IMG/VR virus record: IMGVR_UViG_3300046715_000089
Coordinates: 1-44,228 of that record
Direction: 5' to 3' (one strand)
Source of the DNA: a virus
Length of the DNA stretch: 44,228 bases
In this document: positions 1,774-36,139 of the stretch, piece after piece
Numbering within the stretch: position 1 is the stretch's first letter
How the letters are laid out: each line of letters starts with the position of its first letter
The notes under the pieces: model-generated
The model's input: only the letters and a program-made list of their open reading frames with translations
Databases searched by the model: none
What the model was told of the DNA's origin: nothing
Translations under genes and position numbers: made by a program

Positions 1774-3923
1774 CGGACCTGTACGGCAACCTCCGGCACC
1801 TGCGTCCAGCAGAGCCGTCGGACGGCGAGCCCGCCCCGGAGGATGAGCCGGGGCGGGACCTCGCCGTACCAGGACCGGATGAGGTGGCCGTGCGCGCGGA
1901 CGAGGCGGTCGTCGCGTGGGAGGAGCCGCTCCCGCCGCCCGCCATCCCCCGCATCGTGAACATCATCGTCATCCGCACCCGCGAGGTAGCCGCCCACAAC
2001 AGCACCCGCGCGGTCGTGCGCGAAGCCGCCTACGTGCCCGTCGGCGCCGGCGTCCTGCTGAAGCGGCTGTGGCGCGCGAAGACCAACAGCCTCCACGAGC
2101 AGATGATCCGCGCCGCGATGGCCGCGGGGAACTGGGAAGAGGTGAAGGAGTGGGAGGCCCGCGGCGAGCAGGCCCGCGAGCGCCGCTACCGCCGCCGCAT
2201 GGCCATCCTGGAGGCGCCGGTCACGCTCGCCAAGGGATTGGTCGTCACCCTGGCCACGGTCGTCGGCCTGCTGCTGCTGATCGGCATCACCCTCGCGGTC
2301 GCGAACCATGACCCGCACGAGATCCGGCAGACGTTCGTCACCGTGTCCAACGGTGTCCGTGACCTGGTCACACTCCTCGCGATCGTGTGGGGACCGCTCG
2401 TCCTCCTCGCACCCTGGCTCGGCATTGCCGCGCTGTGGCACGTCGGCCGTAGCTCCGGCGCCGGGCCGGCCTGGCTGCAGGTCGCCGCGGAGGACGAGGA
2501 CGTCGACATCGATGAGACGACGATCGCCCGTGCGCTGGAGGCCTTGGGGATTCCGCAGGTCACGCGGTATCTGAAGCAGGGTCTGCCGCTGAAGTTCATC
2601 ACCATCCCGCGCCGTGATGGCCGCGGTACGCACGCGGTCGTACGGCTGCCCGATGGTGTGACCGCCGACCGGATCGCCCGCCGGCGCGCCGACTTCGCGA
2701 CGACCCTGCACCGGCTCTCCAAGGAGGTCTGGCCGATGACCGGCAGCGAGGCCGGGGTGCTGGATCTGTGGGTCGCCGACAAGGGCGCGCTGGCCGAGGG
2801 CGCCGGGCCGTACCCCCTGCTCACGGAGGGGAAGGTCGACGTCTTCAAGGGCGTACCGCTGGGCAAGACGCTGCGCGGTGACCCGATCCTGGCGCCGGTG
2901 ATGGAGCGCAACACCATCGCCGGAGGAATGCCGGGTCAGGGCAAGTCCAGCGCCGCCCGAGCGCTGCTGGCCGGTGCCGCACTGGACCCGTTCGCAGAGA
3001 TCCGCATCGGCGTACCCGACTCCAACTTCGACTTTGAGCTGTTCAAGCCGCGGTGCTCCCGGTACGTCATGGGCGCCGAGGACGAACAGATCGAGGAGAT
3101 CCTCCACGATCTGCGGGACCTGTATGCCGAGGTCCAGACCCGCGGGCAGATCCTCATCGAGCAGAAGGAGCCCGCGGTCACCCGGCGTCTTGCCGAGGCC
3201 GGGATTGGGCTGCATCCGCTGTTCTACCTGCTGGAAGAGGCGCACATCGCCATCCAGCACAAGCAGTACGGCAAGGAAATCTCCCAGCTCCTCATCGACA
3301 TCGTGAAGCTGGGCCGTAAGCGCGGCATCCACCTGATCGTGTCCACGCAGGCGCCGACGAAGGACTCGATGCCCCGCGACGTCACGAGGAACTGCTCCAA
3401 CGGCATCGCGTTCGCCGTCGGTGACCACGTGGCGAACGATGCGCTGCTGGGCCAGGGCGCCTACTCGGCCGGCCACCGCGCGACGGAGCTGATCCCCGGC
3501 GTGGACAAGGGCACCGCGGTGTGCAAGGGCCTGTCCGGTGAACGGTCGGACATCGTGCAGGCGTACTTCATCGCGATCGAGAAGGGCAACGACCAGCTCA
3601 CGCCCATCATCGAGCGGTCGCTGAAGCTCATCGCGGACCTCGGCCACCCCGTGCCCGGCAAGGGCGGACCGCGGCGGGTCGCACAGCGGGACCTGCTCGA
3701 AGACCTTGAGGCGGCACTCGGCGAGGAGACCGTTCCTGCGGCGGACGTCCCGGCGCTCCTGGCCCGCCACGCGCCCGGCTGGGCGCCGTACCGGCGGATG
3801 TCCGGCAAGGCCCTCAGGGATCGCCTGGCGCGCGAGTACGGGGTGAAGGTGCCGTCGACCGACAACCGCTGGTGGATCAGCCCGGCCCTCATTGCTGATG
3901 CGCTCGCGCGACGAGCGAATTAG
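1770..3923 (+). CDS. FtsK/SpoIIIE-type conjugative DNA translocase (Tra-like)
   Basis: A 717-residue ATPase. I chose the GTG at 1770 because it overlaps the upstream stop (GTGA); the frame stays open upstream but only inside the DUF2637 gene. Two membrane segments lie near residues 150-178 and 200-222. A Walker A motif, GGMPGQGKSS, is near residue 385 and a Walker B, FYLLEEAH, near 485-492, followed by the FtsK-like GRKRGIHLIVSTQAP. The C-terminal about 60 residues look like a winged helix (ending WWISPALIADALARR), as in Tra proteins that read short clt repeats. Known homologues (pSAM2 TraSA, pSVH1 TraB) pump double-stranded DNA between mycelia. It is unlikely to be the chromosomal FtsK: it lacks the long multi-pass N-terminus and sits in an AICE-like cluster. 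Confidence 0.9.
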   Translation: MTDLYGNLRHLRPAEPSDGEPAPEDEPGRDLAVPGPDEVAVRADEAVVAWEEPLPPPAIPRIVNIIVIRTREVAAHNSTRAVVREAAYVPVGAGVLLKRLWRAKTNSLHEQMIRAAMAAGNWEEVKEWEARGEQARERRYRRRMAILEAPVTLAKGLVVTLATVVGLLLLIGITLAVANHDPHEIRQTFVTVSNGVRDLVTLLAIVWGPLVLLAPWLGIAALWHVGRSSGAGPAWLQVAAEDEDVDIDETTIARALEALGIPQVTRYLKQGLPLKFITIPRRDGRGTHAVVRLPDGVTADRIARRRADFATTLHRLSKEVWPMTGSEAGVLDLWVADKGALAEGAGPYPLLTEGKVDVFKGVPLGKTLRGDPILAPVMERNTIAGGMPGQGKSSAARALLAGAALDPFAEIRIGVPDSNFDFELFKPRCSRYVMGAEDEQIEEILHDLRDLYAEVQTRGQILIEQKEPAVTRRLAEAGIGLHPLFYLLEEAHIAIQHKQYGKEISQLLIDIVKLGRKRGIHLIVSTQAPTKDSMPRDVTRNCSNGIAFAVGDHVANDALLGQGAYSAGHRATELIPGVDKGTAVCKGLSGERSDIVQAYFIAIEKGNDQLTPIIERSLKLIADLGHPVPGKGGPRRVAQRDLLEDLEAALGEETVPAADVPALLARHAPGWAPYRRMSGKALRDRLAREYGVKVPSTDNRWWISPALIADALARRAN

Positions 3924-4033
3924 GTGATGCGCGATGCGGAACACCATGCCTGGAGGGCGCCAGAGCAGGCTTTGCCGGGGGTTCCGTTCACGTAATTTTC
4001 ATCATTTTCGCAGGTCGGGGGCTGTCGGCCAGC

Positions 4034-4070
4034 GAATTACAAACCTAATCCGCTTTGACGGATGTAATTC
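4034..4070. repeat. AT-rich nested inverted repeat downstream of the translocase
   Basis: GAATTAC (4034-4040) pairs with GTAATTC (4064-4070). Inside it ATCCG (4048-4052) pairs with CGGAT (4059-4063) around a 6-nt loop, leaving AAACCTA bulged on one side. The surrounding stretch (about 3985-4075) is clearly more AT-rich than its neighbours. It lies in the 166-nt gap between the translocase and the next gene. It could be a protein-binding site (clt or att) or a structured leader; nothing decides between these. Confidence 0.5.
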
Positions 4071-4876: not shown

Positions 4877-5908
4877 TCAGTAGCTGAACAGGGCGGCCTT
4901 GGCCATGCAGCCCTGCACGGTCACCGCCTTGTCGGTCGCGTTGTAGACGCGGAGGCGGAGCCGGTTCGTGTCATCCAGCCCGAACTGCCCGCCGAGCTCC
5001 GCCCGGACCACACCGGCCGCGTCAGCGGTGTAGGTCAGCCGCCACGCGTCATCGATGAACACGCCCTTGTCGGTGACCCGAGTCCACGCCATGTCGAGCT
5101 TCTCGCCGGCGGTCAGGCCGTGCAGCTCGAAGATCGCGTCGCAGGTCGCCCAGTACTTGGCCGTGGCGATGACGACGGACAGGCCGGCCTCGCCATGCAG
5201 CTTGTGCTTGTCGCTGAACTCCTTGGTGAACTTGACGTCACCGCTCTTGCCTGCGGCGATGACCTGCGGCGTACCGGTTACGCCGAGGCTGCTGACCTGT
5301 GCCATGTCGTCCTCCTGGATGTTGGGGCCGGCACCCACGCGCCACTGCCCGTAGTCGGCCTTCGTGGCCCGGTCGTAGTCGCAGCCGACGCCGCCGAGCG
5401 TGTGGTTGTTGGAGTACTGCTGGAGCTGCGCGTCGTCGTGCCAGCGGCCACCTGACCACGCGTAGGTCTGCCAGCCCCATGCGGCGTGCCCGCTGTCCAT
5501 GGCGCGTTGGACCGGCCCGTAGCCGCCGTAGATCCCGACCCGGCCCTCGCCGAGCACACTGGCGGCGCCGTCGAGGTAGGCGTTGATCGCGGCCTGCTGC
5601 CCGCTGGAGGCGTCCCAGTCGACGGCGAAGTAGATCGGGCGCCCGGAGGGCATCCCGCACGCCTGTGCCTGCATCTGCGCGTCGATGGCGTCGGCCACGC
5701 CCGCTGTACGGCCGTCCAGGGACCGCTTCGCGGTGGTCTCCCAGACGACCACAATCCAGATCCCGGCGTTGCTCAGCGCATGCGCCTCGGCCGAGGTGAG
5801 GTTCTTGGTCGGACTGTGCGACAGGTATCGGCAGACGAACTTGACGCCGGCGGCCTGTAGGGCGGCGATGCCCGGCCGGCCGAAGGCGTAGTCGATTCCC
5901 TCAGGCAC
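4877..5908 (-). CDS. DUF1906 glycoside-hydrolase-like lysin with separable C-terminal domain
   Basis: A 343-residue protein. Residues 1-195 match the DUF1906 (Rv2525c-like, GH25-related TIM barrel) fold: GIDYAFGRPG at the start, FVCRYL, PIYFAVDWD around residue 90, and CDYDRA near 180. Such domains in actinophages act as peptidoglycan glycosidase-like lysins. Residues about 202-343 are a separate beta-rich domain beginning MAQVSSLGVTG. Directly before that Met is a textbook ribosome site, AGGAGG with a 5-nt spacer, so a free 142-residue C-terminal protein (4877-5305) is probably also made. The gene start overlaps the end of the CHAP gene by 8 nt, implying coupled expression. The glycosidase activity is inferred from fold family, not shown. 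Confidence 0.8.
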   Translation of the reverse strand: MPEGIDYAFGRPGIAALQAAGVKFVCRYLSHSPTKNLTSAEAHALSNAGIWIVVVWETTAKRSLDGRTAGVADAIDAQMQAQACGMPSGRPIYFAVDWDASSGQQAAINAYLDGAASVLGEGRVGIYGGYGPVQRAMDSGHAAWGWQTYAWSGGRWHDDAQLQQYSNNHTLGGVGCDYDRATKADYGQWRVGAGPNIQEDDMAQVSSLGVTGTPQVIAAGKSGDVKFTKEFSDKHKLHGEAGLSVVIATAKYWATCDAIFELHGLTAGEKLDMAWTRVTDKGVFIDDAWRLTYTADAAGVVRAELGGQFGLDDTNRLRLRVYNATDKAVTVQGCMAKAALFSY

Positions 5909-6401
5909 CGAGGCTCACCACCATGGCCAGATCGTCGTCGCCTGCGACGTGCGGCCACCAGTTGGCGAAGCCGGTCACCTGGGAGTCCCACGGGCGCGTC
6001 ACGAGCTCGTACCGGTTGTTGTGGTTGCCCTCGTAGACCTTCAGGGTCCGGCCGCTGACCGACTTGACGATTCCAACGTGGTTGTCTTCCGGCCCGGTGC
6101 CGCGCCAGTTGTAGAACACGATCTTGCGGGATCCGGCGTTGCCGTCGACCAGCCCCAGGGCCCTCAGACGGTTGTGCATGTTCTGCACATAGGCGTCGGA
6201 CTTGTGCAGGCCACCGATCGCGTCCAGCCCGCCAGGAACATCGCTGATGCACTTCAGTACTGAGGCCGCGCACCAGTCGGCGGCGGCGTAGACGCTGGTC
6301 TTCGGCGCCTGCGCGTCGAGCCACTTTCCGAACTCGGTCGTACCGTTGGCCGCCTCGTGCTTGCCGAGCTGGGCCTCGCAGATGTCGAGGATGTCGATCA
6401 C
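5901..6401 (-). CDS. CHAP-type peptidoglycan hydrolase (endolysin)
   Basis: A 166-residue protein with the CHAP (NlpC/P60-related) pattern. The nucleophile Cys is in ADWCAASV (residue about 44), the His in DNHVGIV (about 107), and YEGNHNN follows. CHAP domains cut peptide cross-links of the cell wall. It has no signal peptide, so it would need the neighbouring membrane proteins for release. It lies upstream of, and overlaps, the DUF1906 lysin, giving a two-enzyme lysis cassette that would attack peptide and possibly glycan bonds. Confidence 0.8.
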   Translation of the reverse strand: MIDILDICEAQLGKHEAANGTTEFGKWLDAQAPKTSVYAAADWCAASVLKCISDVPGGLDAIGGLHKSDAYVQNMHNRLRALGLVDGNAGSRKIVFYNWRGTGPEDNHVGIVKSVSGRTLKVYEGNHNNRYELVTRPWDSQVTGFANWWPHVAGDDDLAMVVSLGA

Positions 6402-20106: not shown

Positions 20107-20592
20107 TCAGTACGGCTTGGGCAGCGGCGCACGGGGCTTCGGCTTGGGTGCCGCCTGGGGCTTCGCCTTCGCCGCGCGAGCGCGAACGTGCGCGGTAGTG
20201 GTCTTGCGCGCGCCGGCCTTCGCGAGCATTGCCGGGCTGACGACACCGTCGGCCTTCATGCCGTTCTTGCGCTGCCACGCCTTGATCGCCTGGGTGGTGA
20301 GCGGGCCGAGCTTCCCGTCGACGGCGAGCGGCTTGCCGTGCGCGTCCTTCAGGCCGAGCTTGTTCAGCATCGTCTGGAGCTTCTTGACGCGCGGGTCGCC
20401 GTTCTTGGAGCCGTAGCCTGTGCCGGTCTTGCCGTTGAAGCTCATCGAGCCGTGCGGAGCGGCTCCGGCCTTCTTGGCGCCCGGCTTCTTACTCGCGGGC
20501 TTGGCCGCTGGCTTCGCTCCCGAGCCACCCTTGAACTCGCCGCCGCCCGGACCCTTCATGTTGCGCGGGTGCGCGGTCTCGGTCCATGCCAC
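20107..20592 (-). CDS. Peptidoglycan-binding-domain protein in the head module
   Basis: 161 residues from the GTG at 20592 (VAWTETAHPRNMKGPGGGEF). An ATG at 20634 in the same frame is possible but has no ribosome site and would overlap the opposite-strand gene. Residues about 65-125 match a PG_binding_1 domain: DPRVKKLQTMLNKLGL, LAVDGKLGPLTTQAIKAWQ, GVVSPAML. The tail is Lys/Ala/Pro-rich and basic. Presumably a virion or scaffold-associated wall-binding protein; being in the head module rather than the lysis cassette is unusual. Confidence 0.7.
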   Translation of the reverse strand: MAWTETAHPRNMKGPGGGEFKGGSGAKPAAKPASKKPGAKKAGAAPHGSMSFNGKTGTGYGSKNGDPRVKKLQTMLNKLGLKDAHGKPLAVDGKLGPLTTQAIKAWQRKNGMKADGVVSPAMLAKAGARKTTTAHVRARAAKAKPQAAPKPKPRAPLPKPY

Positions 20593-20632
20593 GTGGGCCC
20601 CTATCTGAGCTGTGAAGTGGGAGAATGGGGCC

Positions 20633-20902
20633 ATGAGCGACTGGGAGTGGTACGTACCGAGCCTGACCAGGCCCGAAGAGTGGGAGACGGCCGAGCCTCA
20701 CGAGAAGGGCGCCGTGCGCTTCGCCAACTGCGAGCCGCTCCGGTGGCGCTGGAGTCGTCAGCAGACCAGCGGCCAGTACCCGAGGACGCCACCACCGCAG
20801 ACGATCCCCGAGGCCACATGGACGCACGTGCTCGGCACGGACGTTGAGGTTTACAACACGACCGGCGAGACCGCCGTGGTGGCCGTACGGCACGTCGCCT
20901 GA
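20633..20902 (+). CDS. Opposite-strand moron-type gene
   Basis: An 89-residue protein on the + strand inside the otherwise uniformly - strand late operon. Third codon positions are almost all G or C, as expected for a real gene here. Upstream GTGGGAGAATGG can serve as ribosome site. The start MSDWEWYVPSLTRPEEWETA is Trp-rich; there is no recognised domain, membrane segment or HTH. Its ATG overlaps, in mirror image, a possible ATG of the peptidoglycan-binding gene. Extra genes with reversed direction between head genes are often morons expressed from the prophage. Function unknown. Confidence 0.6.
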   Translation: MSDWEWYVPSLTRPEEWETAEPHEKGAVRFANCEPLRWRWSRQQTSGQYPRTPPPQTIPEATWTHVLGTDVEVYNTTGETAVVAVRHVA

Positions 20903-35525: not shown

Positions 35526-36139
35526 AGGGCACCGCCGATCTCTCGCTGGATCGCGGGCGCCACGGTCGTACGGAACCAGGCGGACGCCTCAAAGCCGCCG
35601 GTGCACAGCTCGATCAGCTGCTCATAGCCGGTGTGCACCTCGCCCGTGAACTCGTTCTTCCAGGCCCAGCGGACGCCGCGCTCATCGAGCCAGCGGCCGA
35701 GATCGGCAAGAAGGGAGGCGTGCAGATCTCCGCAGCCGCGCCCCTGCTCGTCCTTGTAGCTGTAGGCGGTGTCGAAGGAGATCTCCAGCCAGCAGGCCGG
35801 GTAGTGCCAGGAGCCGTCGCACGGTCCGGCTTCCTCGTCGTACCACTCGGTGCCGGGCAGGTTGCAGTCCTCATCGTGCGCGGCGGCATCGGCCTCCGAC
35901 CGGAGCGGAGCGTCCGGCCGGTACTGCACGTCAAGCAGCGCACACAGCCCCTGTCCAGGCCGGTTCCAGTACCACCAGGGGTCGCCGGGCTCGACGAAGC
36001 TCTCACCCTTGCGCCAGCTCTTCTTCTGCTCGTGGACGGCCTTGACGCTCTCGTCGGCCCCGATGAGCTGGTTGCACTTCAGCCAGACATCCTTCGCGCT
36101 GATGCGGTCGAGCACGTAGACGCGGGTGTCAAGAGTCAT
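35522..36139 (-). CDS. Conserved actinophage hypothetical protein
   Basis: 205 residues with many Trp and Cys. MTLDTRVYVLDRISAKDVWL start, PWWYWNRPGQGLCALLDVQY, CDGSWHYPACWLEISFDTAY and LLADLGRWLDERGVRWAWKN. This is a conserved Streptomyces phage protein of unknown function, in my recollection. The Cys/His/Asp residues may bind a metal. Overlaps both neighbours by 4 nt. Confidence 0.65.
   Translation of the reverse strand: MTLDTRVYVLDRISAKDVWLKCNQLIGADESVKAVHEQKKSWRKGESFVEPGDPWWYWNRPGQGLCALLDVQYRPDAPLRSEADAAAHDEDCNLPGTEWYDEEAGPCDGSWHYPACWLEISFDTAYSYKDEQGRGCGDLHASLLADLGRWLDERGVRWAWKNEFTGEVHTGYEQLIELCTGGFEASAWFRTTVAPAIQREIGGAL

Follow-up and report, generated by a model that had tools for sequence, protein, structure and literature searches.

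Organization of the lysin locus

We analyzed a 44-kb virus record (44,228 nucleotides, hereafter the window), the minus strand of which carries two adjoining lysin genes. One of them, encoding a DUF1906 lysin, contains an in-frame start codon preceded by a ribosome-binding site between its two domains. The features of the locus are as follows.

4877 to 5908, minus strand: full-length lysin gene, 343 aa, with a GTG start at 5908 and its stop codon at 4879–4877; DUF1906/Rv2525c-like domain, linker and predicted C1q/TNF-like domain
5342 to 5896, minus strand: Rv2525c-like (DUF1906, PF08924) glycoside-hydrolase-like domain, residues 5–189 (Pfam, E = 2e-29; phmmer match to solved Rv2525c, 4pmq/4pmn)
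5306 to 5341, minus strand: linker RVGAGPNIQEDD, residues 190–201, doubling as the internal ribosome site
5311 to 5316, minus strand: internal Shine-Dalgarno (SD) sequence AGGAGG, duplex with the anti-SD of −10.3 kcal/mol
5303 to 5305, minus strand: internal start codon ATG, codon 202, in frame
4877 to 5305, minus strand: predicted short product, 142 aa, a complete C1q/TNF-like jelly-roll domain by its model (AF2 pLDDT 90; homologous stand-alone genes)
5914 to 5919, minus strand: GGTGAG, the weaker SD of the full-length GTG start, within the 3′ end of the CHAP gene
5901 to 6401, minus strand: CHAP-type lysin gene, 166 aa, tail GDDDLAMVVSLGA, adjoining the DUF1906 lysin gene

PF08924 matched residues 16–175 of the lysin with 103.6 bits against a cut-off of 27.2, the PHROG annotated as endolysin was also matched (E = 2e-35), and the solved Rv2525c chains aligned to residues 5–189. 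Because the Pfam and Rv2525c alignments both stop upstream of the internal ATG, this codon falls within the 12-residue linker. The first strand of the modelled C-terminal domain begins only 3 residues past the ATG, so that the short product would comprise the whole domain. The original prediction had read this locus as a DUF1906 lysin with a C-terminal beta domain, in which AGGAGG with 5-nt spacing precedes an in-frame ATG at the domain junction, giving products of 343 and 142 residues, and had named no strand. These points proved exact: the AGGAGG at 5316–5311 is separated by ACGAC from the ATG at 5305–5303, the lengths follow from coordinates 5908–4877 and 5305–4877, and the C-terminal domain was modelled as all-beta. 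Thus, as in the endolysins known to yield two polypeptides from one gene, an in-frame start with its own ribosome site lies between the domains, and the reading frame is predicted to join a putative enzymatic N-terminal domain to a distinct, folded C-terminal one.

The SD duplex of the internal start was stronger than that of the lysin's own GTG start (−6.2 kcal/mol) and that of the capsid gene (−8.3 kcal/mol), and stronger sites were confined to a few of the window's genes. Within the whole lysin gene, the internal ATG was the strongest in-frame start, ranking above the GTG. Local mRNA folding predicted at the internal start (−20.8 kcal/mol) was not weak, yet was similar to that at real starts. 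A search of the window with Rfam found no RNA elements.

The CHAP gene ends (tail at about 5904–5942) in DDDLAMVVSLGA, whereas its counterparts in two related contigs end in DDTAMVVSLGA (L002) and DDDTAMVVSLGA (L035); in both contigs, the overlap between the CHAP end and the DUF1906 start is near-identical in DNA to the window. Since this tail resembles the internal junction EDDMAxVSSLG, the CHAP gene may once have borne a C1q-like domain, the tail being a relic of a CHAP–C1q fusion. Elsewhere in the window, a 175-aa protein with PG_binding_1 (20107–20634, minus strand) is encoded within the set of head genes, with the likely scaffold/capsid block to one side of it and the portal side to the other, and ARAGORN called a tRNA-Val (35885–35964, minus strand) inside a longer open reading frame, which may be a false positive.

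Predicted fold of the C-terminal domain

Searches of Pfam, PHROGs and PDB sequences assigned no family to the C-terminal domain. We modelled it with AF2 from an alignment of 27 relatives, which gave an all-beta domain of 10 strands with a pLDDT of 90. Structural matches spanned the whole domain and comprised C1q heads, the TNF family, BclA and ExsFA; among them were Caprin-2 C1q (VIA Z 15.4, 2.2 Å over 126 residues), a C1q head (VIA Z 14.5), BclA (Z 13.8) and the petal domain of the phage phi812 spike (Z 15.6). The ten-stranded jelly roll that characterizes the C1q/TNF-like superfamily is thus present in the model, and we consider it very likely from this model that the domain is a C1q/TNF-like jelly roll. 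No match to a C1q/TNF Pfam profile was found in the 27 members of the domain family, and a profile search of the PDB found no C1q/TNF chain; because of this lack of sequence similarity to C1q or TNF profiles, we limit the label to the fold.

C1q/TNF-like domains are usually trimers. Judging from the monomer model, the lysin domain is probably trimeric as well. Another C-terminal family that shares the junction signal (A5) yielded no more than a generic beta-sandwich lacking any trimeric hallmark, and oligomerization is therefore not generalizable to all lysins with a start at the junction.

Conservation of the junction signal in DUF1906 relatives

By itself, the motif is weak evidence for an internal start, because the window contains 5 instances of AGGAGG-N4-9-ATG where 1.5 would be expected. 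When the lysin gene was shuffled synonymously with its protein fixed, an equally strong SD arose in about 93% of draws (p = 0.94), since Gln-Glu is almost always CAG GAG in a GC-rich code. The lysin gene alone is thus unable to prove selection, its SD being fully explained by its amino acids.

Viral and genome contigs were searched for DUF1906 relatives, the position at which each catalytic domain ends was determined, and a non-redundant set of 105 proteins (<70% identity) was compiled. In the 25-codon window at the junction, a strong SD (duplex ≤ −7 kcal/mol) followed by ATG was present in 49 proteins (47%), compared to 0.3% of 1,139 other windows; with any start codon allowed, the proportions were 66/105 (63%) and 3.4%, respectively. 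The strongest start of the gene lay at the junction in 68 of the 105, against 12.1 expected. The C-terminal domains formed 54 sequence clusters, which were split by BLAST alone, so that some may be distant relatives; in 35 of them most members carried the signal. One cluster, whose 23 members have peptidoglycan-binding domains on Pro-rich linkers, essentially lacked it and provides a natural control. Linkers as different as EDDM, GGGTM, GGGSM, GVDM, PGEDM and QEEPDV all encode an SD, a spacer and a start, and in Nocardia relatives the junction residue is Val or Leu, encoded by GTG or TTG at one position. The best start of the gene was also located where the DUF1906 domain ends, and was mostly GTG, in seven phage lysins from GenBank (P19, prophi91-3, Shagrat, Archimedes, RobinSparkles, StorminNorm and Fairfaxidum); in the lysin A of StorminNorm and Archimedes, it lies at codon 239 or 230.

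Within the C1q-like family, the start codon is kept at the junction in 34 of 43 proteins; one further protein has GTG at this position but without a good SD, and a start codon is missing there in about 9 of the 43 close relatives. Poor conservation of the AGGAGG in homologues keeping the fusion had been named beforehand as an outcome that would speak against an internal start. In such fusions we found both SD and start conserved, which supports the internal-start reading. Homologues thus keep the start at an equivalent place, as in known two-polypeptide endolysins, and because the signal recurs in front of many kinds of end domain, it looks selected rather than accidental.

Three arrangements among the relatives were observed in addition. 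In one lysin (L023), the junction near codon 200 reads AGGAGGACGACATG, identical to the window despite an unrelated C-terminal domain. In another contig (L169), adjacent genes (2477–3382 and 3385–4053) encode the same C-terminal domain; the DUF1906 gene has an SD and ATG at the join, and the second gene has neither. Four Streptomyces genes (L080, L081, L087 and L092) end at the junction, with no obvious partner gene directly downstream.

Codon usage around the junction start

Gly codons in the SD zone (the three codons upstream of the junction start) were GGA in 31 of 43 cases (72%), compared to 5 of 76 upstream of other Met codons and 9% elsewhere (p = 6e-23 for the junction excess). Counted per lysin, GGA was used in 25 of 33 against 4.6 expected (P = 2e-19), and over the eight codons past the junction ATG, GC3 fell by 0.11 (p = 1.8e-6), compared to a change of +0.003 past control Met codons; all these p-values overstate independence because the sequences are related, and the per-cluster count (35/54) is the safer figure. 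Among the C1q-like proteins that keep the start codon, the linker Gly was GGA in 22 of 27. No such shift was seen for Glu and Gln within the SD zone, as their codons already end in G. The enrichment of GGA in the linker and the fall in GC3 after the ATG indicate selection on the nucleotides.

The domain as a separate gene

The C-terminal domain diverges fast: the query P0002 alone found no match in phages and viral contigs, and a two-row alignment found none in genome contigs, so that a profile (A3) searched over Actinomadura-family genomes was needed. This profile located the C1q-like domain in 103 of 297 genomes, and several of the matches were short separate genes. Among the collection's isolate phages, no credible member of the family was found.

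Two of the stand-alone genes (L228 and L230) start at GAGGAGGACGA(C/T)ATG, which is the sequence of the fused junction; upstream of this ATG, neither gene has an alternative start codon in frame. In two further contigs, Amidase_2–C1q-like fusion genes (L238, 1480–3441, minus strand; L239, 1477–3441, plus strand; coordinates on the oriented strand) link an amidase to the domain through EGDDDM, where an SD is also encoded; directly after the fusion comes another, unfused copy of the domain, which has an SD of its own. The amidase part of both genes is broken by an intein-like segment of about 330 residues (CVDE.TEILTEDGW ... YFTGNS).

Separate genes also encode the DUF1906 and amidase parts in Rhodococcus phage Perlina and Nocardia phage NC1, and in L086 a separate gene immediately follows DUF1906. 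The DUF1906–C1q arrangement is not only viral, because three Actinomadura contigs (L049, L058 and L066) carry it in a shared chromosomal neighbourhood apparently outside prophages, with the internal start kept. The neighbours there are a conserved F420-type oxidoreductase-like gene and an XRE-type gene.

Probable production of two proteins from one gene

We favor, with a probability of about 0.6, a model in which a single phage or prophage gene supplies both a full enzyme and unattached C1q-like subunits, which join it in a common assembly. The GTG start would give the 343-residue lysin, whose DUF1906 glycoside-hydrolase-like domain would act on peptidoglycan, and the internal AGGAGG–ATG would give the free 142-residue C1q-like domain. 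Judging from the sequence comparisons, use of the internal start is highly probable. The free domain would be stable on its own and, because the internal start signal is stronger than that of the GTG, would probably be in excess of the full-length lysin. Free domains would then trimerize with the C-terminal domain of full-length molecules, yielding a particle whose trimeric head bears one or two catalytic arms, and this head would hold the host wall by multivalent contact. For a hetero-oligomer of the short and full-length products, which draws on the modelled fold and on analogy, we see about even odds.

The two products might instead be made without co-assembling, the free domain alone masking wall or debris sites, timing lysis or serving the neighbouring CHAP enzyme. 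Some two-polypeptide endolysins, such as LysJavan488, do not form hetero-oligomers, and Ms6 LysA affects timing (PMC9430671). The CHAP gene adjoins the lysin gene here, and the neighbouring enzyme in L169 has the same C-terminal domain without the start. We nevertheless regard this alternative as unlikely: the C1q/TNF-like fold, predicted for this domain, is usually an obligate trimer, so that free and fused copies in one cell should mix.

The original prediction offered as an alternative that two once-separate genes had fused by loss of a stop codon while the second kept its ribosome site. As an origin of the arrangement, gene fusion is likely, given the stand-alone C1q-like genes with the same start context, the separate DUF1906 and amidase genes of Perlina and NC1, and the separate gene that follows DUF1906 in L086. 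It is not really an alternative to an internal start, because codon-level selection suggests that the retained site is more than a relic. A site persisting without a product would be expected to decay in genomes of 70% GC, yet GGA, rare elsewhere, is kept at the SD, GC3 falls past the ATG, and the signal is retained in the syntenic chromosomal copy of several Actinomadura species; we consider a mere relic improbable. Coincidence, by which an acidic linker (QEDD-M) in a GC-rich code happens to spell AGGAGGACGACATG, could appeal to the uninformative shuffle of the single gene and to the five AGGAGG–ATG occurrences in the window, but is contradicted for the family by the homologue statistics, as varied linkers (EDDM, GGGTM, GVDM, PGEDM, EANV) give the same nucleotide signal at the junction and not elsewhere, which makes it very improbable.

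Beyond the model of a co-assembling enzyme and free subunit, we tentatively suggest that the linker with its ribosome site is a portable module boundary, through which any C-terminal domain joined to it would be made in fused form and as a free protein alike. Lysins of phages, and of a syntenic Actinomadura chromosomal gene, would use this boundary to attach unrelated domains; here, the attached C1q/TNF-like subunit would give hetero-trimeric lysins with an adjustable number of catalytic arms.

The nucleotide-level evidence across many unrelated C-terminal domains points to internal starts in lysins as selected rather than incidental, and the lysin repertoire would gain a domain of C1q/TNF-like fold that is probably trimeric. 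Preparations of purified 'single-chain' actinophage lysins may contain two proteins, which matters for assays and enzyme engineering, and phage genomes could be annotated for hidden second products by means of the junction signal.

Comparison with known systems

The original prediction described internal starts as known for a few endolysins of low-GC Gram-positive phages. This was too narrow: the element studied here is a high-GC actinobacterial one, and such starts are predicted for about half of the endolysins of Gram-positive phages, with proof in some cases, those of mycobacteriophages among them (PMC9430671). Single genes encoding two-polypeptide endolysins include those for Lys170, LysIME-EF1, CTP1L/CD27L and LysP7951 (PMC9430671, PMC7098653, PMC4777826). 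The present gene resembles them in that an internal start, in frame and with a ribosome site of its own, lies where the catalytic domain gives way to the C-terminal one, and in a predicted short product that corresponds to the C-terminal domain. It differs in its high-GC actinobacterial setting, its DUF1906 catalytic part and its C1q/TNF-like C-terminal domain, and in being known from sequence. The known assemblies are 1:3, 2:2 or 1:5, whereas the fold model leads us to expect a trimer here; analogy with Lys170, LysIME-EF1 and LysP7951 would favor a mixed one.

Mycobacteriophage LysA (Ms6 Gp2, Pollywog; PMC9430671) is likewise an actinobacteriophage lysin with an internal in-frame start, but its short product retains a catalytic domain, whereas none is recognizable in the short product here. 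Rv2525c (PF08924) shares the catalytic-like domain with lysin residues 5–189; it is Tat-secreted according to its PDB title and lacks a C1q-like part, since the match stops at the end of the Rv2525c chain. With C1q heads, BclA, ExsFA and the phi812 spike petal, the C-terminal domain shares its predicted fold over its whole length (Z 13–15), but no sequence match, and here it forms the C-terminal part of a lysin. A literature search, covering mainly freely available papers, found no account of a C1q/TNF-like C-terminal domain in an endolysin or of internal starts in DUF1906 lysins. Two-polypeptide endolysins are thus already known, and what is new is the C1q-like version, together with a junction signal common to many different C-terminal domains.
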